Shown here piece after piece: positions 2,389-57,728 of a stretch of 64,000 nt of DNA. Where the stretch lies: positions 36,387,670-36,451,669 of the forward strand of contig OZ025248.1 of assembly GCA_964019135.1 (NCBI GenBank), written 5' to 3'. Position 1 is the first letter of the stretch, and each line of letters opens with the position of its first letter. The notes beneath the pieces are model-generated. The model was not told where the DNA came from, did no database searches, and worked only from the letters and a program-made list of their open reading frames with translations. Source of the stretch: Arenicola marina. Lineage: Eukaryota > Annelida > Polychaeta > Arenicolidae. A program made the position numbers and the translations under genes.

Positions 2389-5300
2389 CTATACCTCACG
2401 CGCATCTGCGACCCCTGCGGGGACCTTGATCTCCCACCCGTCCATCGCCTTGGTTACAACCACTTGGCAGCCAAGGCGGGAACTGAAAGCAAATATTTAA
2501 AGCAAATATTATACCATTCAGCATTTGATCCACTATTCCCAGTTAAGAGAGTTCACAAAGTCGCTTGTCGGAGGACATTTTTTTCAAGTGAGTAATAAGT
2601 GAGATTTACTTAAACAATTAATGGTTGGTAACATGGTAATAGGACCAGAAAAGTTTTTTGGCGAGACACGTTTTGAGCAAATAGGAATATTAGCCGTTTG
2701 AAGCTATTTTTTGCTTTTCCTTTACTCATTTATTTTCTACTGTTTATAAATTTGTTCCATTCGTTAATCCTCTGGTAGTGTCTCGTTATTAGGTAATGTA
2801 TACACGCCATAAGGCCGTACTTTAACAGCGCATACCCTTACAATACCAGTTTCTCACATGAATAAATATTTAGCTTCATTAACAGATAGTTCAAGACAAG
2901 ATGGCGAGAATGTTACATCACTACAACTCAGCTGTTAACTCTAAGATCTGAACAAGATGCATGGCACGCCAAACCAGTCGTCGTCAAAACTGCATTAGAA
3001 GAGGCCTATGTATCTTTGATTTCTTAGTATTCCTTTCAAAATTAATACCATTGACGTTTACCAAATCCAGATTATGCACCCTACATTGATAAGTATCTGT
3101 CCAACCGCTCATTCGGAGGTAATGTTCAGTCCGTTAAACTCTATTTGACACATGTATATGGTCTCATCTTGTTAGTGTACACGTTTTCCGTGCAATAAGG
3201 TATGCATTATTATGGCTGTCTTCATGCTAAACCAACTTTAGCCAAAACTATCCTAAGATGTTACAATGATCACAATGCAGGATTACATTTTTTTCTAGGG
3301 AGGACATTGTCGTATGATGAACTTTAACTTACGTGTCACACAGTTCGTAGGCTAAATCTAACATGTCCAGTTCCTCGTCAGTAGGCTTTTCCGGAATCTG
3401 CTCAAAATGTTCCGGCTTGAACTGCAGGTGGCAGGTTGAGCAGGCTAGCGTCCCTTCGCAAGCACCTGAAGAAACGCACGACGTAATATGATAACTTCTT
3501 ACTTTGTAATAGTGTAATGAGCTCAGAATTTAAAAAAACGGAAATTCAGTTCATTTCCCTAAGGCCACCATTAGAATCAGTATAGATATGTTTTGGAAAG
3601 GTTATTGTAGAATCCTTGTAAGAGTTGCATGGCTATAACCTGTTTTAAACCCGAACATGATGGCATTCCAAACAATGGTAACAGAAGATCAATGGCAAAC
3701 ATGACTTAAGCAACTTTTTGTTGCTTATCACCTTAGGGCAAACAGATGACAGAAAGTTACATAGCCAATACTGCGATTACTGAAAATAAACAAACCAAAT
3801 TTATTTAACATTGGACATCGCAGGATATGATATTGCATGTTATGACAATAAATAATTAAATGCATCATCAACTGTTTTACTTACCAAATCCGTCTACGTC
3901 AATATCGTTATCCACAATCACGTCTAAGAGGTTTTCCCCTACTTTGGCTTTCGTTGACAGACGTCTCCCATCATACATAATAAAATGTACGGTCACTCTG
4001 CAAGAACCAGAAACACAGGTAAGCACAACTGCAAACACACATAAATATGTATGACATGACTGACGTTACTTGGGCTGTCAAGAGCAGCAGCAGCCAGGGT
4101 CAAGAGACCCACGCCGTCTCGGGCTGTCAGAGAGGAGTCAGGGTTAGGAGACCCATGCTGTCATGGGCTGTCAGAGAGGAGTCAGGGTCAGGAGACCCAC
4201 GCTGTCTTGGGCTGTCAGAGAGGAGTCAGGGTCAGGACACCCAAGCCATCTTGGGATGTCAGAGAGGAGTCAGGGTCAGGAAACCCAGGCTGTCTTGGGC
4301 TGTCAGAGAGGAGTCAGGGTCAGGAGACCCACACTGTCTTGCGCTGTCAGAGAGGAGTCAGGGTCAGGAGACCCACGCTGTCTTGGGCTGTCAGAGAGGA
4401 GTCAGGGTCAGGAGACCCATGCCGTCTTGGGCTGTCAGAGAGGTGTCAGGCTCAGGAGACCCACACTATCTTGGGCTGTCAGAGAGGAGTCAGGGTCGGG
4501 AGACTGATCAATGCTGTCTTGTGCTGTTAGAGAGGAGTCAGGGTCAGGAGACCCACGCTGTCTTGGGCTGTCAGAGAGGAGTCAGTGTCAGGAGACCCAT
4601 GCCGTCTTGGGCTGTCAGAGAGGAGTCAGGCTCAGGAGACCCACACTATCTTGGGCTGTCAGAGAGGAGTCAGGGTCGGGAGACTGATCAATGCTGTCTT
4701 GTGCTGTTAGAGAGGAGTCAGGGTCAGGAGACCCACACTATCTTGGGCTGTCAGAGAGGAGTCAGGGTCGGGAGACTGATGCTGTCTTGGACTGTCAGAG
4801 AGGAGTCAGGATCAGGAGACCCATGCCAACTTGGGCTGTCAGAGAGGACGTCAGGGTAAGGGGACCCACACCGTCTTGGGCTGTCAGAGAGGAGTCAGGG
4901 TCAGGAGACTGATGCTGTCTTGGGCTGTCAGAGAGGAGTCAGGGTCAGGAGACCCACGCCAACTTGGGCTGTCAGAGAGGATGTCAGGGTCAGGAGACCC
5001 ACGCCAACTTGGGCTGTCAGAGAGGATGTCAGGGTAAGGGGACCCACACTGTCTTGGGCTGTCAGAGAGGAGTCCAGGTCAGGAGACCCACGCTGTCTTG
5101 GGCTGTCAGAGAGAAGTCAGGGTTAGGAGACCCATGCCATCTTGGGCTGTCATAGAGGAGTCAAGATCAGGAGACCTACGCCCTCTTGCGCTGTCACAGA
5201 GGAGTCCAGGTCAGGAGACCCACGTCGTCTTGGGCTGTCAGAAAGGAGTCCAGGTCAGGAGACCCACGCCATCTTGGGCTGTCAAAGAGGAGTCCGGGTC

Positions 5301-10223: not shown

Positions 10224-18212
<7,989 letters not shown>

Positions 18213-22586: not shown

Positions 22587-25500
22587 ATGGGGGTAAGGTG
22601 GATAAGATTGGTTTTGAAAATCTGCTCACATCTACCTGATATCATGGACTTCTGTCTCATATTGTGCCTTACGCTTTTCTTTATATATCGTTGAATGTTT
22701 ATGCACATTGTTCAACCCAATATCTTCTGTTGTTGCACCGTATTTACATCTTGCTCCCGTGCTATTTACACCTGACATTACTTGTTCAAAACGCCGTTGA
22801 GCTGCGTTGTGAAACTTATTATTTTCAAGTCGGTTCTCACAAGATCCAAGAAAGTTATAGTACTTAGTATGCTGTAAGGAAATCTGTTCATAAATCCAAG
22901 GAGGATAACCGTTACGCTAGCCTGAAAATCAGACGTTAATGTCCTGACAGTCAGAGGGGCCGGCCCTACAGCTCAGTGGGCTAGAGCGCTCGCATTGAGT
23001 GCTCTGGTCACCTGAGAGCCTAACGGCACGTGAGTCGTTGGTTCGAGCCCTGCTGTGGCCATGTCTGTGGTCGCAGGATAAAGATCCCATGTCTTCGTAA
23101 AGAGTAGGGGGTTACCCCTGGGCACATGGCTCCACTCTCCCTTCCTTCTCCCATTGACGCAATATGACCAAAAGTAGTTAAAGCATCCTGATTAACCAAC
23201 CTGACAGTCTGAAGGATCGACACTAACGTCTGAAACCATAGCCCTTGGGCGCATTTTACAAAACATATTTGACCACCTTTACAGAAGCCCTCACTTGGCA
23301 GCCGCCAGAAAATGGATTTTTTGCCTTCTTCAATGTTAATGGGAGCTTGGGTAGACGAGATTCAAAGTTATTCATGCAAGGTTACTTTGTCAAACCACTT
23401 TTTACACACCTCCCGTTTCTCTTCGTGGTATCAGCCGTTATTTTTCGTGACTAGTGGTGATACCTAGTTGTTGGGAATTAAAAACTGCATGTAATTTTTA
23501 GTGCCTCCAACGACTCGATAGGTGTCACCACTGGTCATTGCGCCAAGAAAAAATGGTGTCTGACACCGCAGAAAGAAATACATGGTGTTTAAAAGTCAAG
23601 TTTGTGGAGTAATCTTGTAGGTAAAACCTTGAATCTTGTCTCCCCAAGCTTCCATTAAGATTGAAGAAGGAAAAAATCCATTTTCTGGGGGCTGCCAAGT
23701 GAGGGCTTCTGTAAAGGTGGTCAAATAGGGGAACAGCGCCTAATGCCTATGGTTTCAGACGTTAGTGTCAATTCTTCAGACTGTCATGACATTAATGTCT
23801 GGTTTTCAGGCTACCGTTACGCAAGTTTTCTTGGATTAGGCTTGAGGAAAATTAGCTCTGAAGACCTGTTTAGACTGTACTCGCGGGGGTAAAATATATT
23901 TCTGCATACAGATCAAGAATTTTGTCCTAATTTACATATGGAATTCTGTAAGGTGTTACTCATTTCAAAAATATGGTATAGGTAATGGACCATTGGGTGC
24001 TATTTTACCAGCAGGTCTCCTTCACCTGCAAGATCTCGGGCAGAGTGAGTGAGATAATCTCATTGGTCGGCTGTTGAAAAATGTGATGTGAGGGATACGA
24101 CTTAAAGATATATTGAATCAGAGGTGGCGGGAGGGGGGGGGGGGGGAATAATTGGCCTGTAAGATCAAATGTGGAATATTGCAATACAGCAAAATGAGCT
24201 CTGCTGGTCAAACAGCCTAAATTGTTTGGAAACCAGTCACATCAAAATATCTGCTGTGTATTGTACAAGTCTTACCTAAATCTATCAGCCTGTGTCAAAT
24301 ATATTGAATGGAAAGTAGTAGCATTACCAGTAATCAGTTCCCAAGTTTTGTTCGCTCATTAATTCACAAGCTTCAGCTAGCATCAAGAGTTATGAATCAA
24401 AGAGCATGAATGCTATGAAATTCCTATCACTGCTTTATTATAGTGGGTTGACAGGATTAGTATATAGCAAGATTATGTGACGTCACAGTCAAACTGACCA
24501 GGATATTATGCTCTTCTCAGTTCAAGTGTGATGATACAGGATTCTGTTGTATAAATTACTAATTTATGCTAAAGTATGATCCCTTCAAATTGAATCTAAA
24601 ACTAGTGATATTTTTTGTGAGTATTAAATTACATAATATAACAAAAATTTAACCTGATTGCAATTTTAAGTAGAAGCTTGCTCTAGCATATTATTAATGA
24701 GTATCAATGTTTTCTTTTCTAGGTTCGTGGTCGAAGGAACCACCTGAAGCGTCTCCATGCGCCTAAACATTGGATGCTGGACAAGCTTGGGGGAGTTTTT
24801 GTGAGTATGACTTAAATTATGTGAACCATTAGCAAGGAAGAAATCCTTAGTATCCAGATTCACAGAAAGTGCATTAATCAATAAAAACCAGGATCTATAT
24901 ATATAACAATGGCATAAGCTACACCTCAAGGATACCTTTTGATTGTCATGCTGCAGCTCTTTCTGGTTTTATTTGTGATCAAATGATATTCATGTCACTC
25001 GATAAAATTTTAGCATTTAAACATGTTTATAAACAGAAAATCCACCTGTTAGGTGAATACTTATCTGTTTCTGACACGATATTGCTAGATAAATATTTTT
25101 TACTTAAATGTTAAGTCAAAGTGTTTATGAATACAGGACTTAGTAGTATTATGAATATTGTGAGTGGATGTAGACAGGCCTTATACTGATAACTATCATG
25201 GACAGCTATGTTGAAATTTCATTCATGTTCTTGTTGAATACAAATGATTTAGAATTGTGCTATTGCATATTTCTTTCGACTACATTTTGCATGGAAGTTA
25301 ATTTGATGAAATGTGTGTTATAGGCCCCTAAGCCCAGCACTGGTCCACACAAGACTAGGGAATGTCTGCCTATGATGATTTTCCTGAGGAACAGACTGAA
25401 GTATGCCCTGACTTACACTGAGGTCAAGAAAATCGTCAACCAGAGGCTGATCAAGGTTGATGGCAAAGTCCGCACTGACAAAACATACCCTTGTGGTTTT

Positions 25501-28500
25501 ATGGGTAAGGATCATTCAAACCAGCCATAAATTAACTCGTTAACAGAAGTACATAGACCCCTCACAACAAACATGGGTCATCGTTAAATAGGTTAGGCTT
25601 GTTGGTCATTGGTCCATGCTTTAGCTTAAACTATTCGATGATTCGGTAATGAGGCCTTATCGAAGCTATACATTATCTACCACTTGAAATGTGTGGTCAA
25701 TATAGGCCTTAAAATAACTAGTCTTCAACGGTCGCTTCCAGAATTGTTTAAAATATCTGAGGAGCATCACCCAGAGGGCAAACAAGATGGTCTTCTAACA
25801 TTTTTGAGTAAAATAATTGTTAAATTTTGAGACTTAACCAGCAAATAATAAATTGGCCTACATGAACATGTACAGGTAGATGTCTAACTTGGAGCAGGGG
25901 GGATAAATGTAACCTGATGCCTAATTTAGTAACATCACTGATGACCAGATAACCCATTAATATCATTTGCCCCTGTGCAACTTTTGGATCAAGAGAAAGA
26001 TATGCCAGTTGTTCTTTCATGTCTCCATGTTTGTTAAAACGTTGAGTATCTAATTTGCAAATTATTTTTTAGAGGTAAATAAATAGGCCTTATCGAAGCT
26101 ATGCAATGTCTGTTCGGTAGAATGTTTAGTCAATCTAGGCCTAAGAATGATTTAGTCTTTAAACGGTCGCTTCCTGAAATGTAGTGTCTGAGGAGCATCA
26201 CCCATAAGGCAAACAAAGATTTCTTTCATAATTGAATCAGTCTGGTTTTATCATTCACCAGTGGGAGCCTTCGTGCTTTCATGTGCACATATAGGTTTGC
26301 TGATACTGTTCTCTATATCAGTTCCAGGAAGTATTGTCAATATATCACCCTTTTCTGGGTGTGCTCTAGCAATTCATTTCAATTAGCCACTGCGGCTAAA
26401 CACCTTCAGTTTTCTTTAGCCACACACCGATCCCATTAGCCACATACAAGTATATGTTTTTTCTCTCCAAAAACATTGTGTTTATAAGCCAAATCACACT
26501 TTCGGACGCAATTCATGGGATTCATTCGGGATAAGCAATGCCAAGGGGTCGCTATTATCAAATGAGGGGGAGGTCCTGGGGGCCTCGTAATGCCGGAGAG
26601 AGCGGACATTTCTGATGAAAAAGATTTACCTCATATTTTAATACTTGCGATCGGGGGGGGCGACTGCCTCCCAAAATCTGCGTCCGTACTAATGTTCTCT
26701 CTAGCAGCGGCGACATAGAACAAGTCAATGCGACAAAAATATCCCGTCTGAGCGGATTGTGGAAACCCGGCATTTCCGTAAAGCATCCGCCCCGCCCCCC
26801 CCCCCCCCCCCCCCTCATTGCATAATGGCCACTTCAAAGTGTCTCACCATGGCGTTTACCAAATAATGATTCCGCTGATACAGAAATTTGAAAAGCAAAC
26901 TTAAGGGGCAGGGGGGGTTACCCCCACTCATCCCTCCCCCACCTCAAGTAAGTGGATGTCCAGTAAGGGCAGGCCAAGGACTGTAAAGTACAGTAGCGTG
27001 CCCCCTAGTCCCATCAGTCGTAAATTTTTCGAACATACTCAGTCAACCACCTCCACCTCCATCTCCAAAATCATATATCCGCTCCTGGTCGGATAAATGA
27101 GCAATTAAGGTTTCCGATGATTGAGGAATTGAGGTTTCCGGGCCCAGAAATCACGAGGATATGCGAGGAAAATCTGACCTCGGAATCTTCTTCTTACCTC
27201 AATCCTGGATCCTTTTTATATACAATTCTGATCCTTTGCAGTCTAGCCTCAACATCTGTTGAGGACTGGTGATGCTGAGGAGGGGCATTCTAAATGGTAG
27301 GGAGCAGTCATTTGCCGCTTTTAGCGATGGATGCCACATCTCTCTCCAACCCCACTTGGGCATTTAATACATTGCTAGCTGTGACCGAGTCCCGCAGTAG
27401 CCCCCCCCCCTTTTTCCGCTTGAAGGGCGATCAATCTGTTTGCTATAGACCTGCCATATACCCCACATTTCCATGCAAGTACCCGCTCTATAAACACTAT
27501 TGTGTGCCCCTAGCATTACACCAGAACATCTCAGTCATACAAATTTGGTGTTTCACATCAGTTCTGCGGAGTAACTTTATGAATATTGCAGGTTTTAGTC
27601 TGATCGGTATCGTTTTTAAAGGCAATATCAGAACTTTTTATAAGCATGTGCTAGTGCGCTCTCTCGGGCATTACTGGGTGTCAGGGAACTGCCCCCCACA
27701 CACACCGGCACACCATCCCACATCAGACTTGTATTATAATATGCCCGCTGCCCCCCCCCCCCCCCCCTCTGGGTGGCCAACCACAATACGAGAATGACTG
27801 TGTCTACGCCCACATTCTCATCTTGAAGGTACATATCGGTCAACAACACGAGAACAAATACCTAACTAAATCCAGCTAGTTTGACTTATGCTCAACAATG
27901 TCACTGATCACGAAAAACACGCCCAATGCCGAGACAATGCCCCGACTGGCCCCAACCCGAAATACGCGCCTGCGCACTGGAAGGGGTGATTCGGCTTATT
28001 GGCGGCTGAGTAGCGTGCTTACCCTTTGCCGTCATCATTTTGTCACCGTTTGCTTGGACAACGCGAACGCCGAGTAAATTCCGTGTGGTTGTATATTCAG
28101 GACACTTTAACCACTTTTGGTCATATCGCGTTAATGGGAGAAGGAAGGGAAAGAGGAGCCATGTCCCCGGGGGTAACCCCTACTCTTTGCGAAGAAGGAC
28201 ATGGTAACTTTATCCTGCGACCACACAGACATGGCCAAAGCGGAGCTCGAACCATCGATCCATGTGCCGTTAGCATGGTTGGGCTCTGAGGTGACCAGAA
28301 AGCTGAATGCCTGCGCTCTAACCCACTGAGCTACCGGGCCGGCCCTCATTCCGTGTGGAAACGGAAATAACCGAACATTAATTATTCGGAAAATAACTAG
28401 AAGTACGAGTAAGCTACGTCACCTTCGAAAATGTTGAGGGTGTGTTCAGCCTTGGGATTTCCTTGTGCCAATGACAGCCACATCACTGCGGGCATTCAAT

Positions 28501-31500
28501 TCAGCGAAATCGTGTTTTGATCGTTGATTGAAAATCAGGCCATTTTTTTCGCCACTGTGGCGATACGCATGGACCAATCTTGCGCCACATACAGTTTGCT
28601 TTCGCCATTGGCGATGTGGCGAACGGCTAGCGCGCGCCCAGCTTTTTAACTAGGCGAATGTATAAATATTATTAATTGTGCAAATTCAGTAGAAGGCTGA
28701 ACATGCTAAATCTTACCGGTAGTTCCATTTACAGGTCACATATTCGCTGTACATGTGTGTATTTGCACAATTCCCTTAAAGTGAAGCTTAATGTCACATT
28801 CCAACTATTCAGCGAATAATAAGGTTCTGTTCATAGTAAGGCCTTATCGAAGCCATGCATGAGCTACATAAGTGCAGTGTGTGGTCAATCTAGGCCTAAG
28901 AATGTTATGTCTTTAAACGGTCGCTTCCAGAATTTATGATGAATAGCTGAGGAGCATCACCCACAAGGCAGACAAGATTATTTCTTAAGGTCATTGAATT
29001 AGTCGGGTTTTCACATGCACCAGGGGAAGCCTCCCTGCCTCAATTATGAAACTGTCTGAGCTACGGATTGTGGGTTACCCTTTAACCAGCATCTTCAGCA
29101 GGTGTCCTACAAACCCATTTCATTGTCCCAGTGGTTTCTTGGTTCAGTCTAGCTTCGTTGTTACTGTTTTTTAATGGTAGCATGAAGTATTGGCAATATC
29201 TGACTCTTTAATATCTGCTCATATACCATAATTGTTTAGCGAATAAAAAGGTTCTGTTTATAGTAAGGCCTTATCGAAGCCATGCATGAGCTACAAAGTG
29301 CAGTGTATGGTCAATCTAGGCCTAAGAATGTTATGTCTTTAAACGGTCGCTTCCAGAATTTGTGATGAATAGCTGAGGAGCATCACCCACAAGGCAGACA
29401 AGATTATTTCTTAAGGTCATTGAATTAGTCGGGTTTTCACATGCACCAGGGGAAGCCTCCCTGCCTCAATTATGAAACTGTCTGAGCTACGGATTGTGGG
29501 TTACCCTTTAACCAGCATCTTCAGCAGGTGTCCTACAAACCCATTTCATTGTCCCAGTGGTTTCTCAGCTCAGTCTAGCTTCGTTGTTACTGTTCTTTAA
29601 TGGTTGCATGAAGTATTGGCAATATCTGACTCTTAAAATAGGCTCATATTGAATAATTTGTTAGTGAATAAAAAGGTTCTGTTTATAGGAAGGCCTTATC
29701 GAAGCCATGCATTAGCTACAAAGTGCGGCGTGTGGTCAATCTAGGCCTAAGACTAATATGTCTTTAAACGGTCGCTTCCAGAATTATGATAAATAGCTGA
29801 GGAGCATCACCCATAAGGCAAACACTTTTTGGTAACAAAAAATAACTGACATGAATAAAACATTCTTTGTAAAAAAAAAATTATAAGAAAGTTTTCAATT
29901 AATAGCTCTACCAGCTGACTAATTAACAGCACTATACCAGTAAAAGTACTACCGGTACCATTAGAGGTTTTATCGAAGCCATACATCGATCTAAATCGAA
30001 TGTATGGTCAATGTAAGCCTTCAATTGTCTTCAAACGGTCGCTTCCAGAATTTTAACTAATAGCTGAGGAGCATCACCCAGAAAACAGACACGATTTGTT
30101 TAGCTTAATCTTTGCGCTGTTTCAAATAAATATTGTGTCATTTAAGTTACCATCAGCGTCCTGTTCAAATCTGCGTTTTTGCTTAGCGAAACTTGCAAAC
30201 AGGCATTGTTATAATATTATTACCTATTGTTTGACTTTTGTTTAAATACCTTCTCTGACTAAAACAAAGATGTATGTAAGGCATCGGGTTTCATAGACTT
30301 TGAAAAGCATGTGCAACACATCCACGATTTGCTTCTTGTAAATCAGAAGCAGCCATGTCTGAGTGACAGTAGATTTGACCAGACTAAAGGGTTGCAAAGG
30401 TTCAAATTGCACGTATGGCTCGAGTTGTTTATATCATTAACACCATTCAGCTCCTCATTTTCCCATAACTTGTTTAGCAGTTAACGGAAATAAGCGTTAT
30501 ATTTTGATAAAGTGGTGCTTCTGTCATTTGTATGATTGTTTATGCATTTGTAGATGTGATCACCATTGAGAAGACTGGAGAGAACTTCCGTCTTATCTAT
30601 GATGTGAAGGGAAGGTTTGCTGTGCACAGAATCTCGGCTGAGGAGGCCAAGGTAAGGTTTTTTGTAAAGTGAAACTGGAACAGACTAAATTTATTTGGCC
30701 AAGCATTCATAACGGCATGTAAGCCCCCACCCCACCCCCAAACAAAAGCAAGAAGCCATATCAAAGCCTTACACTTTTTCATGTACATGAAAGCTGTAAT
30801 AGTTTTTTGGAAGCCAAGTTTTAAGTTGTGTTCACCAGCATCCACCTGATAGGCTTTTGCGTTAGACTTTTCTAGATCAGTCCTTAGTTGAACTGCTGGG
30901 CTACTTTCTTGACATCATTATGTGTATCAAATGATGTCTTTATCTGGTCCAGCTATAAAGAAAGTGCTATTTCAAGCTGCCATAACGTTACGTTATGGTA
31001 GTCCAGGCTATGCACGACAAATGGAGCTTAATGTAGTTATGCTGTTAGGCAGTGTTGAATATCCCTAAGAATTAAATTATCTGATATCTATTAAATTTAG
31101 ATCTGGTTGAATACTGTATATACGGGTAGATAACCTTGCGATGTCACCGTTCATTAAGCTGACATTTGTTGCATGTAGCTAGTGGTACAAGATAATGATA
31201 AGCAGTCAAGCAAGTGAAAGTTTAACTGATGAACTTTAGTTTTATTTGTGCTTGATGGTTCCAGTACCGCAACTGCTTTTCAACCTATTTTGTACCACAT
31301 TGTTTTAGTCAATGTTGTCGGTGTTGCAAAGCTATAGCAAAGTGTTTTTTTCAAGCCACTGTAGCAGTTACGTTATTGTGGTCCAGGCTCAGCACAACAA
31401 CACGGAGTACTTTCCATTCTCTTCAACTGCCAGTTGTTTCCTTTTTAAGATATTCTGTGACTGATTTTGGAGTATTTAAATGTTTTTTTATGTTCTTTCT

Positions 31501-33561
31501 CTGTATCTAGGTAGGCTTCCGGTCTAGCGCAGGCGTCTAAATTGCTATCGGTTGCTGCGGTGAATGTTTGGTAGCGATAGTTTATAGGGAATCTAATTGC
31601 TCAGCATAAACATCTATGCTAGAATTTTACCTCCAGTTCAAGATACTAGAATGAAAACTTATTTCTTGGCGCTTTTCGACTAGTCTTATCTGTCGAAACA
31701 TGGTGATAAGAGGGTGGTCATATGTGACATTGGTTTGTTTGCTGATGTTTTGCAGTACAAGCTGTGCAAGGTGAAGAAGGGACTCGTTGGGTTGAAGGGT
31801 GTGCCCCACTTGGTCACCCATGACGGCCGTACCATTCGCTACCCAGACCCCCTCGTCAAGGTTAACGACACTATCCAGGTGGACATCGCCTCAGGCAAGA
31901 TCAAGGAATTCATCAAGTTCGACTCTGGTAAGTATCTTCCGGCTCACTCGTTGAAGAAGGCGATCAACGAACTGTATATCAATAGGAGTATTAATCAGTT
32001 TTCAAAATGAACCCACCTGTTTTAAAACTTACACTAAATCGATTTCATCGTCATTTTGAATGATTTTTTTATTATTGCTCGATTTCCTGGTGTTTTGAGG
32101 GAAGGTTTTTGGTGTTTTTCAGGAAATGTGTGCATGATCACGGGAGGCCGTAACTTGGGGCGTGTGGGTACGATCACCCACCGCGAGCGACACCCTGGGT
32201 CATTCGACGTCGTGCACATCAAGGACTCCATGGGACACACCTTTGCCACACGGTGCGTGATGCTCTTGAGCCACACTCGCCAGTCGTCTCGCTGTGCTCC
32301 TTATCTTTAGAGTATCACTCCTAATGATATTATGTAGCTGGCTAATCACCGGTTAATACCACCGATGGTCAGTAACAGTTATGCCAATTTTAAAAATATA
32401 CGAAAGCCTGGCAAAAGGAGTGAACCACTTCGCTAGTACACATAGTTTGTATGCGATAGACAACTGGATGCCTTAGTCCATGAACATGTACAGCTGTTTG
32501 TGGAAGCTGGCTGTAGATGCTGTGCCCTATTGATTCGTTAGCGATGGTACCTTCTATCGAACCGGACTAAATCAGATATAAACTCTTGGTAAATTGGATG
32601 TTGGGCGCTGCTGTGTGATGAGATAACGATGGATTCCCCTTCATGAGCTGGTTTACCAGTAGTGCATGAAAAATCATCTGCTGATCGCACTGTCCAACAT
32701 TATATAATGATGGAGGGGGGTGTATGAAACACTACACTATATTCTTGAATAAGTTCTATGTTGTGTTCGGAATTGTACCGGGCATATTTTATATGATCTT
32801 GCAAAATTGGTGATTTTTGTGTTGTATAGTTATTTAATACAATACAACTTGCATTTTAATTAGATCATTAATGACATCTTCAATTAGCAATTGATATATA
32901 AGTTGAAGTACTGTGTGAGCTGATGAGATGACGATGGATTCCCCTTCATGAGCTGGTTTTCCAGTAGTGCATGAAAAATCATCTGCTGATTGCACTGTTC
33001 AACATTAAATAATAATGTGGGGGTGGGGGGTGAGTTGAAACACTACAAGATGCTTTTGTAGTGTTTTTACCGGTATATGTTTTGTTCGGTATTGTACATG
33101 GTGTATTTTACAATGTAGAATCGGTGATTTCTGGGTTCTCCAGTTGTTCAGTAGGGTCCAATACAGCTTGCTTTTTAATGAGATCATTACCGATATCTCC
33201 AGTTAGCACTTAATATAAGTTAAAGCAGTGTGTGAGCTGATGAGATGACGATGGATTCCCCTTCATGAGCTGGTTTCCCAGTAGTGCATGAAAAATCATC
33301 TGCTGGTTGCACTGTACGCCGTCTACACTTTCGACGTGTGTGGATTTGGGAAGGTTCTTCGGTGCAGTTGTGACCATCACATGACGCCGTCTGTCCATTT
33401 AATACTGATAATGGCATATATTTTTGTTGTGCTGCAGGTTAAACAACGTGTTCGTCATCGGCAAGGGCCTGAAGCCATGGGTGTCTCTGCCGGGAGGCCG
33501 TGGTCTCAAGCTCACCATTGCCGAGGAGAGGGATCGCAGGATTGCCGCCAAGAACCAGTAG
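22587..33561 (+). CDS. RPS4: 40S ribosomal protein S4
   Basis: Seven coding exons: 22587-22592, 24723-24800, 25324-25504, 30554-30651, 31756-31927, 32123-32252 and 33438-33561, all GT-AG with matching phases, giving 262 aa (human RPS4X 263). Order: the N-terminal eS4 region ([18 protein letters not shown]), an S4-type RNA-binding segment ([17 protein letters not shown], then [15 protein letters not shown]), the central eS4 domain ([19 protein letters not shown] to RTIRYPDPL), a KOW-like segment ([20 protein letters not shown]) and the C-terminus ([20 protein letters not shown]). By family, it is a structural protein of the small subunit. The two-codon exon 1 (ATG GGG, then GTAAGG) yields [12 protein letters not shown], one residue longer than the usual MARGPKKHLKR. 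I chose it because the ATG follows a pyrimidine tract and the splice phase fits, but exon 1 is the least certain part. Introns 3, 4 and 6 carry snoRNA-like RNAs. Confidence 0.95.
22893..23838. mobile_element. long inverted-repeat element in RPS4 intron 1, interrupted by a SINE
   Basis: The left arm (22893-22952 and 23200-23375) and the right arm (about 23620-23838) are reverse complements over about 220 bp. Shared words include ACCGTTACG, CAGACGTTAATGTC, CTTTACAGAAGCCCTCACTT and GAAAATGGATTTTTT. The left arm is split by the SINE at 22953-23199. No transposase is seen in the 245-bp centre. Confidence 0.8.
22953..23199 (+). mobile_element. tRNA-derived SINE, main family, copy 2, with target duplication
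   Basis: The head GCTCAGTGGGCTAGAGCGCT and the B box GGTTCGAGCCC define a tRNA-like promoter; the body ends near AAGCATCCTGATTAACCAA. It is flanked by direct repeats CCTGACAGTC at 22943-22952 and 23200-23209, which form the target-site duplication inside the older inverted-repeat element. Confidence 0.9.
25652..25787 (+). ncRNA. H/ACA-type snoRNA candidate, family A copy 1
   Basis: RPS4 intron 3. The 5' hairpin is closed by AGGCCT/AGGCCT, with inner pairing near GAAGCTATACATT/AATGTGTGGTC. The hinge contains AAAATA, which fits ANANNA. The 3' hairpin has lower stem GTCTT/GAGGGC, pocket, upper stem GCTTCC/GGAGC, then ACA at 25782-25784 three bases from the proposed end. The ACA lies about 16 nt below the upper stem, as expected for a pseudouridylation pocket. 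I cannot name the target. Confidence 0.65.
26085..26218 (+). ncRNA. H/ACA-type snoRNA candidate, family A copy 2
   Basis: Same architecture as copy 1: AGGCCT-closed 5' hairpin, hinge AGAATG (one mismatch to ANANNA), lower stem GTCTT/AAGGC, conserved ACGGTCGCTTCC and GAGGAGCATCACCCA, and ACA at 26213-26215. The apical parts differ most from the other copies, while the pocket sequences are unchanged. Located in RPS4 intron 3. Confidence 0.62.
26795..26814. repeat. 20-bp poly-C run
   Basis: Twenty consecutive Cs in RPS4 intron 3, the longest of many poly-C or poly-G runs in the window (others at about 9210, 17461, 24137, 27751, 36450, 43168, 59747 and 63099). Confidence 0.95.
28085..28350 (-). 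mobile_element. tRNA-derived SINE, main family, copy 3
   Basis: In plus-strand sense the tail (GGACACTTTAACCACTTTTG) comes first and the tRNA-like head (GCGCTCTAACCCACTGAGCTA) last, so it is on the minus strand. Flanks include GGGCCGGCCCTCATTCCGTG, and TTCCGTGTGG is present on both sides (28078 and 28348), a probable target duplication. It lies in RPS4 intron 3 between snoRNA-like copies A2 and A3. Confidence 0.85.
28839..28977 (+). ncRNA. H/ACA-type snoRNA candidate, family A copy 3
   Basis: 5' hairpin AGGCCT...AGGCCT with the inner stem GCCATGCA/TGTGTGGT and a pocket of ATCGAA against CAATCT. The hinge is AGAATG. The 3' hairpin has GTCTT/AAGGC at its base (G-C, U-G, C-G, U-A, U-A), then ACA at 28972-28974. 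It is nearly identical to copy 4, which starts 427 bases downstream. Confidence 0.68.
29266..29403 (+). ncRNA. H/ACA-type snoRNA candidate, family A copy 4
   Basis: Differs from copy 3 at only a handful of positions, none in the pockets or boxes. ACA at 29398-29400. It belongs to a unit of about 427 bp duplicated in tandem together with flanking sequence (AGTCGGGTTTTCACATGCAC and following). Confidence 0.68.
29691..29827 (+). ncRNA. H/ACA-type snoRNA candidate, family A copy 5
   Basis: The hinge AGACTA matches ANANNA exactly. Lower stem GTCTT/AAGGC is kept and ACA lies at 29822-29824. The upstream flank repeats that of copies 3 and 4; the downstream flank diverges immediately after the ACA, which suggests the RNA end is a real boundary. 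Confidence 0.7.
29963..30094 (+). ncRNA. H/ACA-type snoRNA candidate, family A copy 6
   Basis: The most diverged copy. The 5' hairpin retains TTATCGAAGCC and ATGGTCAAT, the 3' hairpin retains AACGGTCGCTTCCAGAA and GCTGAGGAGCATCACCCA. The basal stem and hinge are weakened (TTCAATTG in place of an H box). Two ACA triplets are possible (30085-30087 or 30089-30091). It may be a decaying copy. Confidence 0.5.
30895..31022 (+). ncRNA. H/ACA-type snoRNA candidate, family B copy 1
   Basis: RPS4 intron 4. The 5' hairpin is closed by GCTGG/CCAGC with a perfect 9-bp inner stem GACATCATT/AATGATGTC. The hinge box AAAGAA fits ANANNA. The 3' hairpin has basal GTGC/GCAC, pocket TATTTCAAG against TCCAGGCTAT, and an 11-bp upper stem CTGCCATAACG/CGTTATGGTAG. 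ACA at 31017-31019 sits three bases from the end and 15 nt below the upper stem. This is the clearest H/ACA fold in the window. Target unknown. Confidence 0.75.
31269..31402 (+). ncRNA. H/ACA-type snoRNA candidate, family B copy 2
   Basis: Diverged paralogue of copy B1. 5' hairpin GCAAC/GTTGC with inner ACATTG/CAATGT; hinge ATAGCA fits ANANNA. The 3' hairpin has GTGT/GCAC at the base and CCAC/GTGG above the pocket; the pocket words TTTCAAGC and GTCCAGGCT are the same as in B1 although the stems have changed. ACA at 31397-31399. Conservation of the pocket with changed stems points to a functional guide. Confidence 0.7.
32598..32700 (+). ncRNA. structured intronic RNA, family C copy 1 (C/D-like)
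   Basis: RPS4 intron 6. The outer stem ATGTTGG/CCAACAT encloses a C-box-like GTGATGA, a long hairpin (GATGGATT, TTCATG, CTGGT with ACCAG, CATGAA, AATCATC) and a D-box-like CTGA followed by GCAC, which can pair with GTGT. A strong internal hairpin is unusual for box C/D snoRNAs, so the class is uncertain. Confidence 0.5.
32902..33003 (+). ncRNA. structured intronic RNA, family C copy 2 (C/D-like)
   Basis: The outer stem is GTTGAA/TTCAAC where copy 1 has GTTGG/CCAAC, a compensatory change that supports pairing. C-box-like CTGATGA at 32920-32926 and D-box-like CTGA at 32986-32989. The internal hairpin loop (CTGGTTTTCCAG) also keeps its pairing. Confidence 0.55.
33226..33314 (+). ncRNA. structured intronic RNA, family C copy 3 (C/D-like)
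   Basis: Same internal hairpin as copies 1 and 2 (CTGGTTTCCCAG apex). C-box-like CTGATGA is kept, the D-box position reads CTGG rather than CTGA, and the outer pairing is CAGTG/CACTG. Ends about 120 bases before the RPS4 exon 7 acceptor. It may be inactive. Confidence 0.45.
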
Positions 33562-47400: not shown

Positions 47401-48774
47401 ATTGTCTTCAAAGGTCTGAAGCACGCTTTTAACTTCCTGGAAATACCTTCGAGTGGTTGATAATGAGAGACAATGTTGTTGGACTAGCGCTGGTTGGCGG
47501 GCCTGGTGTGGCATGAGTAGTGGGGATCAGATTACACGCGGGAAGGCCCGCACAGGTGAACGATCGCATTGTACAGGTGAGTTGTACTTGGGCTCAGCTT
47601 GATTTTATCCGCGGTTCAGGGTTAGCCGTATTGTTTGGCAATCCGCCTCATTGTCTTAAGTGCCCAACGCTCTTTTTCAACTTCAGACCAAAGTTAAAGT
47701 CATTCCTGCGGCATTTCGGCATCTGAATACCATCATAGAACCTTGGTCGTTAGATCTCATGTAGGGGCGAACCATTGTTTCAGCATAGCTCAAATATTAC
47801 TCACGTCTGCCATTTACTACAAATACCCCTCATGGACTCTAACATGGAAGATGGACCAGCATGATTAATCGGAATCTGTCTTTATTACATAAATTAAATA
47901 CTTTACGCTGCAACTAAAAAAGCGTGTTTTTAAAATCCATGACCACGCTCGAAATCTAATATTTTTTCTTTCATTTCAAGATGAATCCAGGTACCAAGGA
48001 AATACAAAACGACGCTGTCAACCTCGAATGTGTTCTTGTGTCACTGTAATTCGTGCACATTATGCAACATAGCTAATGAACAAGGTTTAAATGTATGCGA
48101 TGGTTGTTCACATTGCGATATTTTCACCATCATATCTACATATATCTCATCAGCTCATGTCATTTTATCATTGTCGGTCAATAGCACTTCCCTCCCCAAT
48201 CTGCCCCTGCTTTGCGAGTGTAGAAATGACTTAAATGCCTGGTTCGATCTGTTTTAGTGTTAAACCTTTAAGAAAGGTATACATTGTCATGTCTATCGTA
48301 GTTTAAGTAACAACCCACAGTCAGCAATGTCAATAGTTTATTGACGTAATACACCACCAGAATGTCACTTTTCCGCCTAAATGGCTGTAGTCCCCTATGA
48401 GCAGCTTATAACAAATAAGCTGAAAATCCATCGTCAACGGAGCAAATAACACTGTTCAGGAATGGTAAGTAAGACCGTACAATTTACATTGTCCATGCAA
48501 GGGTATATACCAAATTTGATAGGGGGGTGTGTGTGTGGGGGGGGGGTGGGGGTGCATGGATCTGGATAGGGGTGAGCTCTTAGAAAATCGGGGTGGCCCA
48601 ACCCAAAAACCCGAGAGGGCTCACACAAGTAAAGGGGGGGGGGGTCTACATCTAAGTTAGCCTGATTTCTGAATCTACAGAATGGGCGTCATATAATTCC
48701 CCCTGTATTATCCTTTTGGTCGGATTCCCTTGCCACATTTCCTTAATGACACACGGTGGTGCCTATCCCTTACC
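44481..48774. other. intergenic region, no gene seen
   Basis: Contains a TGTCG-rich stretch (44510-44665) related to 22110-22290 and 53560-53710, a GT/CT simple stretch at about 45088-45118, and G-rich runs at 45357-45380 and 48530-48650. Candidate frames are short and lack recognisable motifs. Confidence 0.55.
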
Positions 48775-51085
48775 CTGTTCCCACAATGTTACAGGTCTGC
48801 GTCTCTCCCCGTCCCCTGTTCCCACAATGTTACAGGTCTGCGTCTCTCCCCGTCCCCTGTTCCCACAATGTTACAGGTCTGTGTCCCTCTCTTTACCCTG
48901 TTCCCACAATGTTACAGGTCTGCGTCTCTCCCCGCCCCCTGTTCCCACAATGTTACAGGTCTGCGTCTCTCCCCGTCCCCTGTTCCCACAATGTTACAGG
49001 TCTGCGTCTCTCCCCGTCCCCTGTTCCCACAATGTTACAGGTCTGCGTCTCTCCCCGCCCCCTGTTCCCACAATGTTACAGGTCTGTGTCCCTCTCTTTA
49101 CCCTGTTCCCACAATGTTACAGGTCTGCGTCTCTCCCCGTCCCCTGTTCCCACAATGTTACAGGTCTGTGTCCCTCTCTTTACCCTGTTCCCACAATGTT
49201 ACAGGTCTGCGTCTCTCCCCGTCCCCTGTTCCCACAATGTTACAGGTCTGCGTCTCTCCCCGTCCCCTGTTCCCACAATGTTACAGGTCTGCGTCTCTCC
49301 CCGTCCCCTGTTCCCACAATGTTACAGGTCTGCGTCTCTCCCCGTCCCCTGTTCCCACAATGTTACAGGTCTGCGTCTCTCCCCGTCCCCTGTTCCCACA
49401 ATGTTACAGGTCTGCGTCTCTCCCCGCCCCCTGTTCCCACAATGTTACAGGTCTGCGTCTCTCCCCGTCCCCTGTTCCCACAATGTTACAGGTCTGTGTC
49501 CCTCTCTTTACCCTGTTCCCACAATGTTACAGGTCTGCGTCTCTCCCCGTCCCCTGTTCCCACAATGTTACAGGTCTGCGTCTCTCCCCGCCCCCTGTTC
49601 CCACAATGTTACAGGTCTGCGTCTCTCCCCGTCCCCTGTTCCCACAATGTTACAGGTCTGCGTCTCTCCCCGTCCCCTGTTCCCACAATGTTACAGGTCT
49701 GCGTCTCTCCCCGTCCCCTGTTCCCACAATGTTACAGGTCTGCGTCTCTCCCCGCCCCCTGTTCCCACAATGTTACAGGTCTGCGTCTCTCCCCGTCCCC
49801 TGTTCCCACAATGTTACAGGTCTGTGTCCCTCTCTTTACCCTGTTCCCACAATGTTACAGGTCTGCGTCTCTCCCCGCCCCCTGTTCTCACAATGTTACA
49901 GGTCTGCGTCTCTCCCCGTCCCCTGTTCCCACAATGTTACAGGTCTGCGTCTCTCCCCGCCCCCTGTTCTCACAATGTGACAGGTCTGGGTCTCTCCCCG
50001 CCCCCTGTTCTCACAATGTTACAGGTCTGTGTCCCTCTCTTTACCCTGTTCCCACAATGTTGCAGATCTGCGTCTCTCCCCGTCCCCTGTTCCCACAATG
50101 TTACAGGTCTGTGTCCCTCTCTTTACCCTGTTCCCACAATGTTACAGGTCTGTGTCCCTCTCTTTACCCTGTTCCCACAATGTTACAGGTCTGTGTCCCT
50201 CGCTTTACCCTGTTCCCACAATGTTACAGGTCTGCGTCTCTCCCCGTCCCCTGTTCCCACAATGTTACAGGTCTGTGTCTCTCTCTTTACCCTGTTCCCA
50301 CAATGTTACAGGTCTGTGTTCCTCTCTTTACCCTGTTCCCACAATGTTACAGGTCTGCGTCTCTCCCCGTCCCCTGTTCCCACAATGTTACAGGTCTGTG
50401 TCCCTCTCTTTACCCTGTTCCCACAATGTTACAGGTCTGTGTCCCTCTTTTTACCATGTTCCCACAATGTTACAGGTCTGCGTCTCTCCCCGTCCCCTGT
50501 TCCCACAATGTTACAGGTCTGTGTCCCTCTCTTTACCCTGTTCCCACAATGTTACAGGTCTGTGTCCCTCTCTTTACCATGTTCCCACAATGTTACAGGT
50601 CTGCGTCTCTCCCCGTCCCCTGTTCCCACAATGTTACAGGTCTGTGTCCCTCTCTTTACCCTGTTCCCACAATGTTACAGGTCAGCGTCTCTCCCCGCCC
50701 CCTGTTCCCACAATGTTACAGGTCAGCGTCTCTGCCCGCCCCCTGTTCCCACAATGTTACAGGTCTGCGTCTCTCCCCGTCCCCTGTTCCCACAATGTTA
50801 CCGGTCTGTGTCCCTCTCTTTACCCTGTTCCCACAATGTTCCAGGTCAGCGTCTCTCCCCGCCCCCTGTTCCCACAATGTTACAGGTCTGCGTCTTTCCC
50901 CGTCCCCTGTTCCCACAATGTTACAGGTCTGTGTCCCTCTCTTTACCCTGTTCCCACAATGTTACAGGTCTGCGTCTCTCCCCGTCCCCTGTTCCCACAA
51001 TGTTACCCGTCTGTGTCCCTCTCTTTACCCTGTTCCCACAATGTTACAGGTCTGTGTTCCTCTCTTTACCCTGTTCCCACACTGA
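48775..51085. repeat. 41-bp minisatellite, about 56 units
   Basis: Units are of two main types sharing GTTCCCACAATGTTACAGGT: one continues CTGCGTCTCTCCCCGTCCCCT, the other CTGTGTCCCTCTCTTTACCCT. Runs of the first type dominate the 5' half and alternation of both the 3' half. As 41 is not a multiple of 3 and the unit lacks plus-strand stop codons in all frames, all three plus frames stay open for more than 1.2 to 2.5 kb. There is no evidence of a gene. Confidence 0.97.
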
Positions 51086-51294
51086 TCTGTTGCTCGCTGT
51101 TCTTCCTCCTACACTGGGAACATGGGCCATGGAGGAGGCCAGGGATTCGCGGCCAGGCACCTGCGTCTGTGGTACATTTCATCCAACCCCATTCACTTTC
51201 CCAGTTTTCCCCCTTCACGTACAAAGAGCTCGCCCAAAACATTTCATTCTTCGTACAGGGCCCTTCCTCCCATACTAGAGTATTGCACCCACTC

Positions 51295-51545
51295 CCACCC
51301 CACTTCTACCTTTAAGGCTCGTCCCCTGCCATAATACAGTAAAGCACCCACCCCCACCCCACCCCGCCTCCCCCTACAGGGCCCGTTCCCGCCCATAATA
51401 CAGTAATGCACCCACCCCCACCCCATCTCTTCTTACAGGGCCCGTTCCCGCCCATAATACAGTAATGCACCTACCCCCACCAACACCCCAACATACAGGG
51501 CCCGTTCCGTCCTATAATACAGTAATGCGCCTCTACTTGCAGGGC
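51295..51545. repeat. tandem repeat of about 66 bp
   Basis: Four units of CCATAATACAGTAATGCACC, then CACCCCCACCCC and TACAGGGCCCGTTCCCGC, immediately downstream of the 41-bp array. Confidence 0.85.
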
Positions 51546-55650: not shown

Positions 55651-57068
55651 GTAAGCAAAATATTTTGTTTGCAACTGATATAGAAACTTAAGCGCATATG
55701 ATGGCGTTTATAATTATGAAATTTAATTTTGATGACATGCAATGACAATATTGTTAGTGTAGAGTCTGTTGGTTTTCTTTTATAAAAGAAAAACTTTAAC
55801 ATTGAAACGCCACAGGTGATCAAAATCCGGAGTTGCGTAAATTTCCTGTGGTTCGAAGTCTAAAATTGACAGAATTTACCTGTCGCGTTATAGGAAAAAA
55901 ACATTTAAGATAAAACGGTTGCTCAAAGTATTTAGTTGATACTAACAACTATGTGGGCTCATGCGTTACTAGGCCAAGATATAAGCGATATCGACAGCGT
56001 AAGTTATGCGCTGAGCAACTTCAAAACTCGGGCGGTATAGTTGTTTGTTTAATACGGGAAATGGTGGTCTGGGAGGGCTGGCGCGAGGTAACACAGCGTC
56101 GAGGGTCGCCCCGCTGTCGTCACCCACCACCTGCCTCCCCCGTGACGTCGGTGGGGGTCACCGGGGTCGGGCCGGCCTGGGGGGTGGGTGAAACGGCGAG
56201 GAGGGTGAGGGGGTGATGCTGCTAGGAGGGTGGGGTAGAGGAACGGCTGATGCGGCGAGGAGGGGGGGTGGGGGTTAGGAGAGAGGTGAGTGGGCGAGGG
56301 GGTGCCGCAGGGTGGCTGGCCGCTGAAGAGCAGCGCGTCAGAAGGACTTTTTCACGTGATTTCTCGTATAGGAGGTCACCGGGGTGTGACGGTCTTTCAT
56401 TTCGTGGAAGGCTGACGCCCGAGAGGGCTGTGGCCGGTGAAAGGAGTGTGGAGTGTTGGTGGGGCGGGGGGTGGATGGGTGGGAAAGGGGGGGGGGGCAT
56501 GGCCAGTCGTGGACATAGAGAAGGAGACATAACATCGACCTGCAACAAACATGCATGGCCTTATATTGCTTATAACTGAAAAAAGGCTCCCCCGTTTTAT
56601 AGCAGCGGATACAGAAACAGATGGGGGGTTGGGGCGGGATGCTGAGGGGTAAGAGGGTGGGGCCGGGCGGCATGACGAGAGGTAAGGGGTAAGAGGGGGC
56701 CATTAAAGGCAGGGCGGGCGCTTTGGGCCCGGAGACAGCTGTTTTTGACGCTCTCGTGCACTCGCTATATCATTCAGACCTTGGTAAGCAGGAAGGTTTC
56801 CTTGCCCGTCGTAGATCGTCAGGTGGTATGTATAAAACCCAAAGCCAGCAACACCCGGGGTCATACCTGCATCTCTAGATGCACCTAATTACCTTACCCC
56901 AGTGCCAGACCCACGTGCTGTGGCTTCAGGTTTCGTCGCCTGATTTACCCTTCACGTGCACAAAGGTGGCTTAAAACATCATTGTTTCTTTCCTGGCCCA
57001 CAGCGCAATAATTGTAATGTCTAATCCCATTGTATTTTATCATCATGTCAACCTTTCTCCTCCTGCAG
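55651..57068 (+). other. presumed intron 1 of the Orange-domain gene
   Basis: Bounded by GTAAGC and CTCCTGCAG. Contains G-rich simple sequence (56200-56300, 56460-56500, 56620-56700) and an E-box CACGTG at about 56353. I looked for bHLH signatures (helix 2, LEKADILEMT-type) and saw none. Confidence 0.5.
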
Positions 57069-57080
57069 ATTGCCGCAACC

Positions 57081-57728
57081 ATGCACGCTATGATGGAGAC
57101 CTCGCCCGCCGGGGAGCTGAGCCAGGAAATCCTGCTGGCCGGATTCCGGGACTGCATGGACGAGGCAGTCCGCTACCTGACCGAGGTCGAGCAGATCCCG
57201 ACCGAGGCATCCGTGCTCCAGGGATTACTGGGCCACCTGGAAACCCAGGAGCAGCACCTGACTGATCGTGACGTTGGTGGCGCTGACACGATTACGGTCT
57301 CGAACCCGATCCCGAACCAGATCCAGACGACCACGCCGGATTCACCCACGCCCCATCCCGTGTTCCGGATCCAGAACATGGGGGGTCAGATGTATCTGGT
57401 CCAAGATCCAGATCTGAGTGTGACCATGACCAGCAAGGGCAATGGAGTGCTGAACACGACGACCTGTCGATCACCTGATACAAGTGAATCGTTAATCAGG
57501 TCAACAGCGGCAGCCGACCACAAGCCAACAGCCTTTCCGCCGCACGCCAGCGATGTGAACCACGTGACCGTCGACAAGAAACACGACCCTTGTGAAGACT
57601 TCCTGTCACGTGACATGGACACACTGATGAATGCTAATCCTCAGATCGAGTCTGTTCTGGCGGAATTACTCGAACTCCTGGAAGATGATGACGATTTCTT
57701 CAGCGATGAAGAAATGGACATGTTTTAA
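57081..57728 (+). CDS. Hairy/E(spl)-type Orange-domain protein without recognisable bHLH
   Basis: The exon begins at an acceptor (TTTCTCCTCCTGCAG, then ATTGCC at 57069), and the first in-frame ATG is at 57081, giving 215 aa to TAA at 57726-57728. Residues about 14-58 match the Orange domain of HES/HEY repressors: EILLAGFRDCMDEAVRYLTE, then VEQIPTEASVLQGLLGHLET. The middle is Thr/Ser/Pro-rich. The end is acidic (SVLAELLELLEDDDDFFSDE, then EMDMF) and lacks the WRPW or YRPW Groucho-binding motif of HES/HEY proteins. I could not find a basic helix-loop-helix coding exon in the upstream 2 kb. If none exists, the protein could dimerise or modulate HES factors without binding DNA; if one does, this is the last exon of a diverged HES gene. 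The frame is open and in phase 0 through the acceptor, so both readings are possible. Confidence 0.75.
   Translation: MHAMMETSPAGELSQEILLAGFRDCMDEAVRYLTEVEQIPTEASVLQGLLGHLETQEQHLTDRDVGGADTITVSNPIPNQIQTTTPDSPTPHPVFRIQNMGGQMYLVQDPDLSVTMTSKGNGVLNTTTCRSPDTSESLIRSTAAADHKPTAFPPHASDVNHVTVDKKHDPCEDFLSRDMDTLMNANPQIESVLAELLELLEDDDDFFSDEEMDMF

Follow-up and report, generated by a model that had tools for sequence, protein, structure and literature searches.

An array of H/ACA-like copies in an RPS4 intron

The stretch of Arenicola marina DNA analysed here (64,000 nucleotides, referred to below as the window) corresponds to C1:36387670-36451669, C1 being contig OZ025248.1, of an 867-Mb genome in 762 contigs. 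It carries the ribosomal-protein gene RPS4, one intron of which holds six copies of a sequence that resembles a box H/ACA small nucleolar RNA (snoRNA). A protein search with a human RPS4X query matched RPS4 exons between positions 24726 and 33558 of the window, and six coding exons (24723-33561), joined at GT-AG sites, gave a single open frame that ends with a stop codon. The position of exon 1 with the ATG, about 22587, is a guess, and the numbering of the host intron as intron 3 depends on it. The array-bearing intron is bordered by the exons 25324-25504 and 30554-30651. All six copies are oriented in the sense of RPS4, and neighbouring copies are separated by gaps of 139-2622 nt. The features of the array are as follows (window coordinates; Rfam scores refer to SNORA16, RF00190, unless stated otherwise; U4412 and U4502 are positions in 28S ribosomal RNA, rRNA).

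25505-30553, plus strand: RPS4 intron 3, the host intron (GTAAGG...TGTAG, 5049 nt); the flanking exons join in frame
25652-25785, plus strand: copy 1, SNORA16-like H/ACA snoRNA candidate; 27.6 bits (cut-off 35); canonical H box AAAATA; fold z -3.84; H box 14 nt and ACA 16 nt below the upper stems
25658-25665, plus strand: left guide of the 5' pocket, copy 1; UAUCGAAG, the identical word in 6/6 copies, 8/8 columns invariant
25697-25700, plus strand: right guide of the 5' pocket, copy 1; UCAA, invariant; 4 bp with UUGA immediately 5' of U4412
25728-25733, plus strand: left guide of the 3' pocket, copy 1; ACGGUC, invariant; 6 bp with 28S 4504-4509 beside U4502
25766-25774, plus strand: right strand of the 3' pocket, copy 1; AUCACCCAG, of which AUCACCCA is invariant and the G is present in copies 1 and 6 only
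26085-26216, plus strand: copy 2; 18.5 bits; AGAATG in the place of the H box; imperfect 5' upper stem; fold z +0.26
28803-29654, plus strand: two tandem duplication units of ~427 nt, bearing copies 3 and 4
28839-28975, plus strand: copy 3; AGAATG in the place of the H box; fold z -2.12; weak snR46 row, 18.1 bits
29266-29401, plus strand: copy 4; AGAATG in the place of the H box; fold z -2.82; no listed Rfam snoRNA row
29691-29825, plus strand: copy 5; 23 bits; canonical H box AGACTA; fold z -1.95
29965-30092, plus strand: copy 6; 19.5 bits; 5' upper stem long, hinge short and lacking ANANNA; fold z -3.79

Fold and box elements

The copies are 128-137 nt long and directly display the layout hairpin-hinge-hairpin-ACA. 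In box H/ACA snoRNAs, the hinge is expected to carry the ANANNA motif (H box) at some 14-16 nt from the 5' pocket above it, and the ACA is expected 14-16 nt below the 3' pocket and 3 nt from the 3' end. An earlier, sequence-only reading of the window had described a six-copy H/ACA-like family in RPS4 intron 3, with the ACA about 16 nt below the upper stem and a full ANANNA in copies 1 and 5. Its coordinates and pocket words were borne out, and so were the box positions: the distance from the 3' upper stem down to the ACA is 16 nt in 6/6 copies, and that from the 5' upper stem down to the ANANNA of copies 1 and 5 is 14 nt. A covariance model of the six copies found the same six at 131.6-161.4 bits, with the next row at 14.2 bits, although such a model retrieves its own training copies by construction.

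The consensus fold consists of two hairpins, a hinge and an ACA tail, with 95.2% of the cells paired compared with 33-48% in slid controls; the 3' basal stem contains a single unpaired cell (C.A) out of 30. Three of the 28 pairs were changed on both sides, and the covariation score was reached by 5/500 shuffles. With only six sequences, all closely related, pairing and covariation lend the consensus fold support that falls short of proof. Single minimum-energy folds gave two hairpins for copies 1, 2, 3, 4, and 6. An intronic H/ACA snoRNA family is the best-supported reading of the six copies because of this fold, the box spacing, the sense orientation in a ribosomal-protein intron, the invariant guides and the full-length resemblance to SNORA16 described below.

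Restriction to one intron and duplication history

A genome-wide DNA search with copy 5 as the query returned six matches, 6/6 of them in RPS4 intron 3. The other five copies were matched with E values of 3.9e-47 to 5.5e-15, far beyond chance, copy 6 over query positions 43-138 only. The assembly contains six exact matches to a pattern for the 3' hairpin, each of them within RPS4 intron 3, and no match to the reversed control; the counts of the DNA search are lower bounds, with which the exact pattern search agrees. We thus observed the restriction to one intron directly. Dispersal of the copies over the genome outside snoRNA hosts, which had been named beforehand as the outcome that would speak against a snoRNA family, was not seen in either search. 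It is highly improbable, then, that the copies represent a dispersed transposon or short interspersed element (SINE) that landed by chance in RPS4. The inverted repeat arms and the tRNA-derived-looking stretch between copies 2 and 3 could be taken to favour such an origin; both genome searches, which place 6/6 matches inside the intron, speak against it. Within this assembly, a transposon or SINE family is refuted, as no copies lie outside the intron in either search. ARAGORN found no tRNA that could explain the copies.

Copies 3, 4, and 5 reside within tandem units of about 425-427 nt. Copies 3 and 4 share 98% identity over all columns and have identical downstream flanks of 130 nt, and the upstream flanks of copies 4 and 5 are identical at 0.88-0.90. 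Copies 1 and 2, whose starts are 433 nt apart, may derive from the same kind of tandem unit as copies 3-5. For the remaining pairs, the identity of the snoRNA part was 0.73-0.81 (ungapped columns), and the flanks were for the most part close to random; the highest value was that between the downstream flank of copy 2 and that of copy 3 or 4 (0.58 ungapped, 0.48 over all columns). The flank identities are only indicative, because the baseline of 40 random pairs, with a mean of 0.32 over all columns, reached a maximum of 0.71. Between copies 2 and 3, the region 26400-28800 contains C-rich tracts and inverted repeat arms (26563-26607 and 27654-27698), and the minus strand around 28270-28345 bears a stretch that looks tRNA-derived by eye. 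These inverted repeats and the tRNA-like stretch are probably later insertions into the roughly 2.6 kb that separate the two copies.

Invariant columns were concentrated in the guides (29/33), as opposed to the loops, hinge and upper stem 1 (18/60; Fisher p 7e-8, for column classes that were picked after viewing the alignment and cover neither upper stem 2 nor the basal stems nor the tail). Upper stem 2 was invariant in 16/17 columns. This pattern fits purifying selection acting on the guides and the second hairpin.

Resemblance to SNORA16 and complementarity to 28S U4412

In a permissive Rfam search of 4.8 kb, SNORA16 (RF00190) was reported with E values of 0.016 for copy 1, 0.2 for copy 5, 1.4 for copy 6, and 2.4 for copy 2. 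Model positions 1-135, that is, the full length, were aligned to these 4/6 copies with 18.5-27.6 bits, below the gathering cut-off of 35, which is a curators' threshold and not a biological feature. Over the whole window, the E value of copy 1 was 0.22. In copy 3, the weak snR46 row may mask a lower-scoring SNORA16 row of the same clan. The printed alignments of copies 1 and 5 to SNORA16 have the words CGAAGC, GGUCA, and ACGGUCGC in common, so that the family resemblance is directly visible. Other permissive Rfam rows (mir-874, snoZ5 and others) were weak and scattered.

SNORA16A and SNORA16B (ACA16) share with the copies the 135 model positions, the two-pocket layout, the three words mentioned above and a 5' pocket complementary to 28S U4412. 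SNORA16A is hosted by SNHG12 and targets 28S U4412 (PMC3766210); elsewhere the target of SNORA16A/B is given as U4442 in the peptidyl-transferase centre, apparently in a different numbering (PMC12288042). The accessible passages of PMC8178906 and PMC9941101 contain no mention of SNORA16. Unlike SNORA16, the copies score under the Rfam cut-off, are hosted by RPS4 rather than SNHG12 and number six per intron; their 5' pocket forms 8 left and 4 right pairs compared with 6 and 8 in the Rfam SNORA16 consensus. Yeast snR46 (RF01253) likewise guides the equivalent site, U2865 of 25S rRNA in the peptidyl-transferase centre (PMC8307265), and in yeast deleted for snr46, nonsense suppression was increased and the cells were more sensitive to sparsomycin (PMC1766470). 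The snR46 model has 197 positions, unlike the shorter copies, and gave the weak row in copy 3. In addition, snR46 comes from a single gene that is transcribed independently.

The complementarity of the 5' pocket was observed directly. The left guide UAUCGAAG forms 8 bp with 28S 4414-4421 and the right guide UCAA 4 bp, which places U4412 in the pocket with 8+4 pairs. The next best of the 49 U in the 167-nt segment reached 3 pairs. Shuffled guides attained 8+4 at U4412 in 5/200000 cases, and in random 7 kb an 8+4 match had a probability of 0.003 and any 12-pair match one of 0.02; these chance rates rest on 300 random 7-kb sequences and on the shuffled guides. In the Rfam consensus of the large-subunit (LSU) rRNA, which served for numbering, seven of eight human pseudouridine positions were U (4441 was C), and C4417, A4493, U4500, and C4506 matched the expected letters. 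The proposed search of the pockets against rRNA and small nuclear RNA (snRNA) gave 8+4 pairs at 28S U4412 for the 5' pocket and at most 6 pairs with U2 snRNA for either pocket, by which U2 was discarded as a target. Matches to U2 snRNA form clusters at C3:17.29-17.33 Mb and C14:37.49-37.51 Mb, the latter with a near-regular spacing of ~1.68 kb.

With a probability of about 0.9, we propose from sequence comparison that the six elements arose by tandem duplication of the gene for a single box H/ACA snoRNA, the homologue of SNORA16/snR46 in this animal, which would guide the modification of U4412. Family (SNORA16/snR46) and target (28S U4412) are proposals that go beyond the sequence-only reading, which named neither.

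Several results weigh against this proposal. In the Rfam check that had been suggested, no match at gathering score was found anywhere in the window, and the full-length SNORA16 alignments of copies 1, 2, 5, and 6 remained below the cut-off. The SNORA16 score alone is not significant, because in the whole genome at E<=1 copy 1 was the single match with an E value of 0.69 (43/34621 first-look candidates scored) and the same search rang in 3/14 control genomes. Since the score alone is no proof, the case for the SNORA16 family is carried by the shared pocket words and the shared target. For the target, in turn, the left half was taken from the Rfam LSU consensus and the right half partly from seven letters added to that consensus, because a search of the assembly that tolerated up to 3 mismatches did not find the U4412 motif of the peptidyl-transferase centre. 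As to covariation, which is weak in six close copies, three double-changed pairs were reached by 48/500 shuffles. Folded individually, copy 5 has its energy minimum in a form other than the two hairpins, the ACA box is base-paired in the minima of copies 3, 4, and 6, and copy 2 folds no better than shuffles. Furthermore, 4/6 copies have no ANANNA, with AGAAUG in its place in copies 2-4 and no match in copy 6, and the constraint is not confined to the guides, because upper stem 2 is equally invariant.

The boxes and folds also bear on the view that most copies are decaying duplicates and that copies 1 and 5 alone are functional, to which we assign somewhat less than even odds. It is favoured by the presence of ANANNA in 2/6 copies only and by the fold z of copy 2 (+0.26). 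Against decay, the 3'-hairpin words are exact in 6/6 copies, and the left guide of the 5' pocket is invariant even in the old copies with diverged flanks.

As regards the ribosomal DNA (rDNA), the assembly contains a partial 28S fragment at C10:27028965 onward, diverged near U4412, and no intact 28S was found in it. Matches to 18S were short and scattered across several contigs. The rDNA array seems to be missing from the assembly. A search of viral and prokaryote collections for 28S contamination revealed none.

The 3' pocket and 28S U4502

Position U4502 is 100% pseudouridine in human 28S rRNA (PMC6182160). According to PMC8522698, it had no assigned guide as of 2021, and SNORA71 was tested in yeast and failed. 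Our tentative suggestion is that SNORA16 represents a family of dual guides in vertebrates, and perhaps in this animal, in which the 3' pocket would address U4502, 90 nt off U4412. The 3' hairpin of the whole family would then be the missing guide for pseudouridine 4502, a possibility that we would not rank as probable, and the pocket of the six copies would have a rearranged right arm. Among the open-access papers searched, mostly at listing level, none tying SNORA16 to 4502 was found, and the accessible part of PMC3766210 gives U4412 only.

In the Rfam SNORA16 consensus, UGACGGUC and AAC form 8+3 bp without interruption at U4502, which ranks first among the 49 U in the 167-nt segment. Shuffles reached 8+3 at U4502 in 5/200000 cases; when a match to any one of eight known sites was accepted, the figure was 34/200000. 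These sites, which include 4522 and 4546, were taken from the rows listed of the human table. The word ACGGUC, invariant in 6/6 copies and present in the Rfam consensus as well, lies directly at the foot of the upper stem, and its complementarity to 28S 4504-4509 would put U4502 in the place of the substrate. The ACCCA of the copies is complementary to UGGGU 5' of U4502, and the U4502 site is intact in the rDNA fragment of this genome.

These points are opposed by the details of the pairing. In the copies, only one right-side pair (A-U4501) adjoins the pocket; the match of ACCCAG with CUGGGU (4495-4500) is offset, with bases skipped, and comprises six pairs in copies 1 and 6 only. In random 7 kb, 0.9 strict 6+1 matches and 0.03 bulged matches are expected for the copies' pocket; for the Rfam consensus, the probability is 0.037 for a match of 7+3 or better and 0.15 for one of 10 pairs. 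On the consensus, the copies' pocket ranks U4463 over U4502 (7+2 vs 6+1), and the two positions tie on the 28S fragment of this genome. Within the pocket, GGU on the left is paired to ACC on the right in both the consensus fold and the single folds, a pairing that would close the pocket. Moreover, strong predicted pairing is often without activity (PMC8522698). Owing to the displaced right half, the rank of U4463 and the GGU/ACC pairing, this animal gives the dual-guide proposal less support than the Rfam consensus does. If the proposal were true, one snoRNA would place two pseudouridines in the peptidyl-transferase region. The comparison with this distant animal supplies pseudouridine 4502 of 28S rRNA with a candidate for its guide.

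Proposed expression of the array and comparison with known clusters

For the array as a set of SNORA16-like genes, we infer transcription, processing, protein binding, modification and a dose effect of the copies. After splicing of RPS4, trimming of intron 3 would release six mature snoRNAs, each of which would bind the core proteins dyskerin (Cbf5), NHP2, NOP10, and GAR1. Around U4412 (yeast 25S U2865, peptidyl-transferase centre), the 28S rRNA would be held by the 5' pocket, and dyskerin would convert the uridine into pseudouridine. Tandem duplication may raise the gene dose, and the copies with an altered H box are possibly weak or dying. Judged from its sequence, the array is real and probably functional, with an ordinary mechanism and an unusual copy number. 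It would represent a distant animal homologue of a guide acting at the catalytic centre of the ribosome, and its expansion within one ribosomal-protein intron lets one ask how several H/ACA RNAs leave the same intron.

Long noncoding RNAs with snoRNA ends (sno-lncRNAs) arise when trimming is halted at snoRNAs near both intron ends. Instead of six separate snoRNAs, the array might similarly yield H/ACA-capped long RNAs, because trimming from both ends of the intron would stop at copies 1 and 6. We regard this as unlikely. Six copies per intron, with neighbours 139-2622 nt apart, do depart from the vertebrate mode of 'one snoRNA per intron' (PMC2780460); on the other hand, rice and Drosophila do have snoRNA genes clustered within introns (PMC2780460).

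Several H/ACA snoRNAs within introns, as in RPS4 of A. marina, also occur in the Drosophila clusters. Such intronic H/ACA clusters were reportedly described in Drosophila by Huang et al. in 2004. FlyBase names such as Psi28S-3327a-c suggest several copies of the guide for the U4412 equivalent in flies as well. Ribosomal-protein hosts are common in flies, where introns of 27 ribosomal-protein genes harbour snoRNAs (PMC2246290), and tandem cis-duplication of snoRNAs within a gene has been described (PMC2653536).

A second array in the same genome, at C11:18608780-18613297 on the minus strand, consists of five tandem H/ACA-like copies about 1.1 kb apart that resemble SNORA65. Four copies were found by Rfam in one 4.5-kb stretch and the fifth by blastn, with scores of 33-36 bits (cut-off 70), E values of 0.02-0.11 and a match in 1/14 controls. 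Like the RPS4 array, it comprises tandem, multi-copy H/ACA-like genes on one strand; it differs in its spacing and in the identity of its copies, which is 96.8-98.4% to the first. This array, too, remains below the cut-off, an indication, though no proof, that genuine homologues get low scores in this genome. It adjoins a plus-strand gene whose translation looks ERM-type-like by eye, and RPL12, considered as its host, had no significant match there. Owing to the Drosophila intronic clusters and the SNORA65-like array, we regard the six-copy SNORA16-like array in RPS4 as a known kind of arrangement, so that the caution of the sequence-only reading about novelty was apt.

Other features of the window

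Upstream of the array, permissive Rfam searches reported a tRNA row at 22962-23061 (plus strand, 27.4 bits, cut-off 29) and a CPEB3 ribozyme row at 23260-23332 (plus strand, 21.4 bits, cut-off 35). By eye, an open reading frame at 10224-14673 (minus strand) resembles an MTF-1-like zinc-finger factor and one at 57030-57728 (plus strand) a Hes/Hairy Orange-domain protein. A long tandem-repeat array at 48716-51315 (plus strand), in which all three plus-strand frames are open, is probably a minisatellite.

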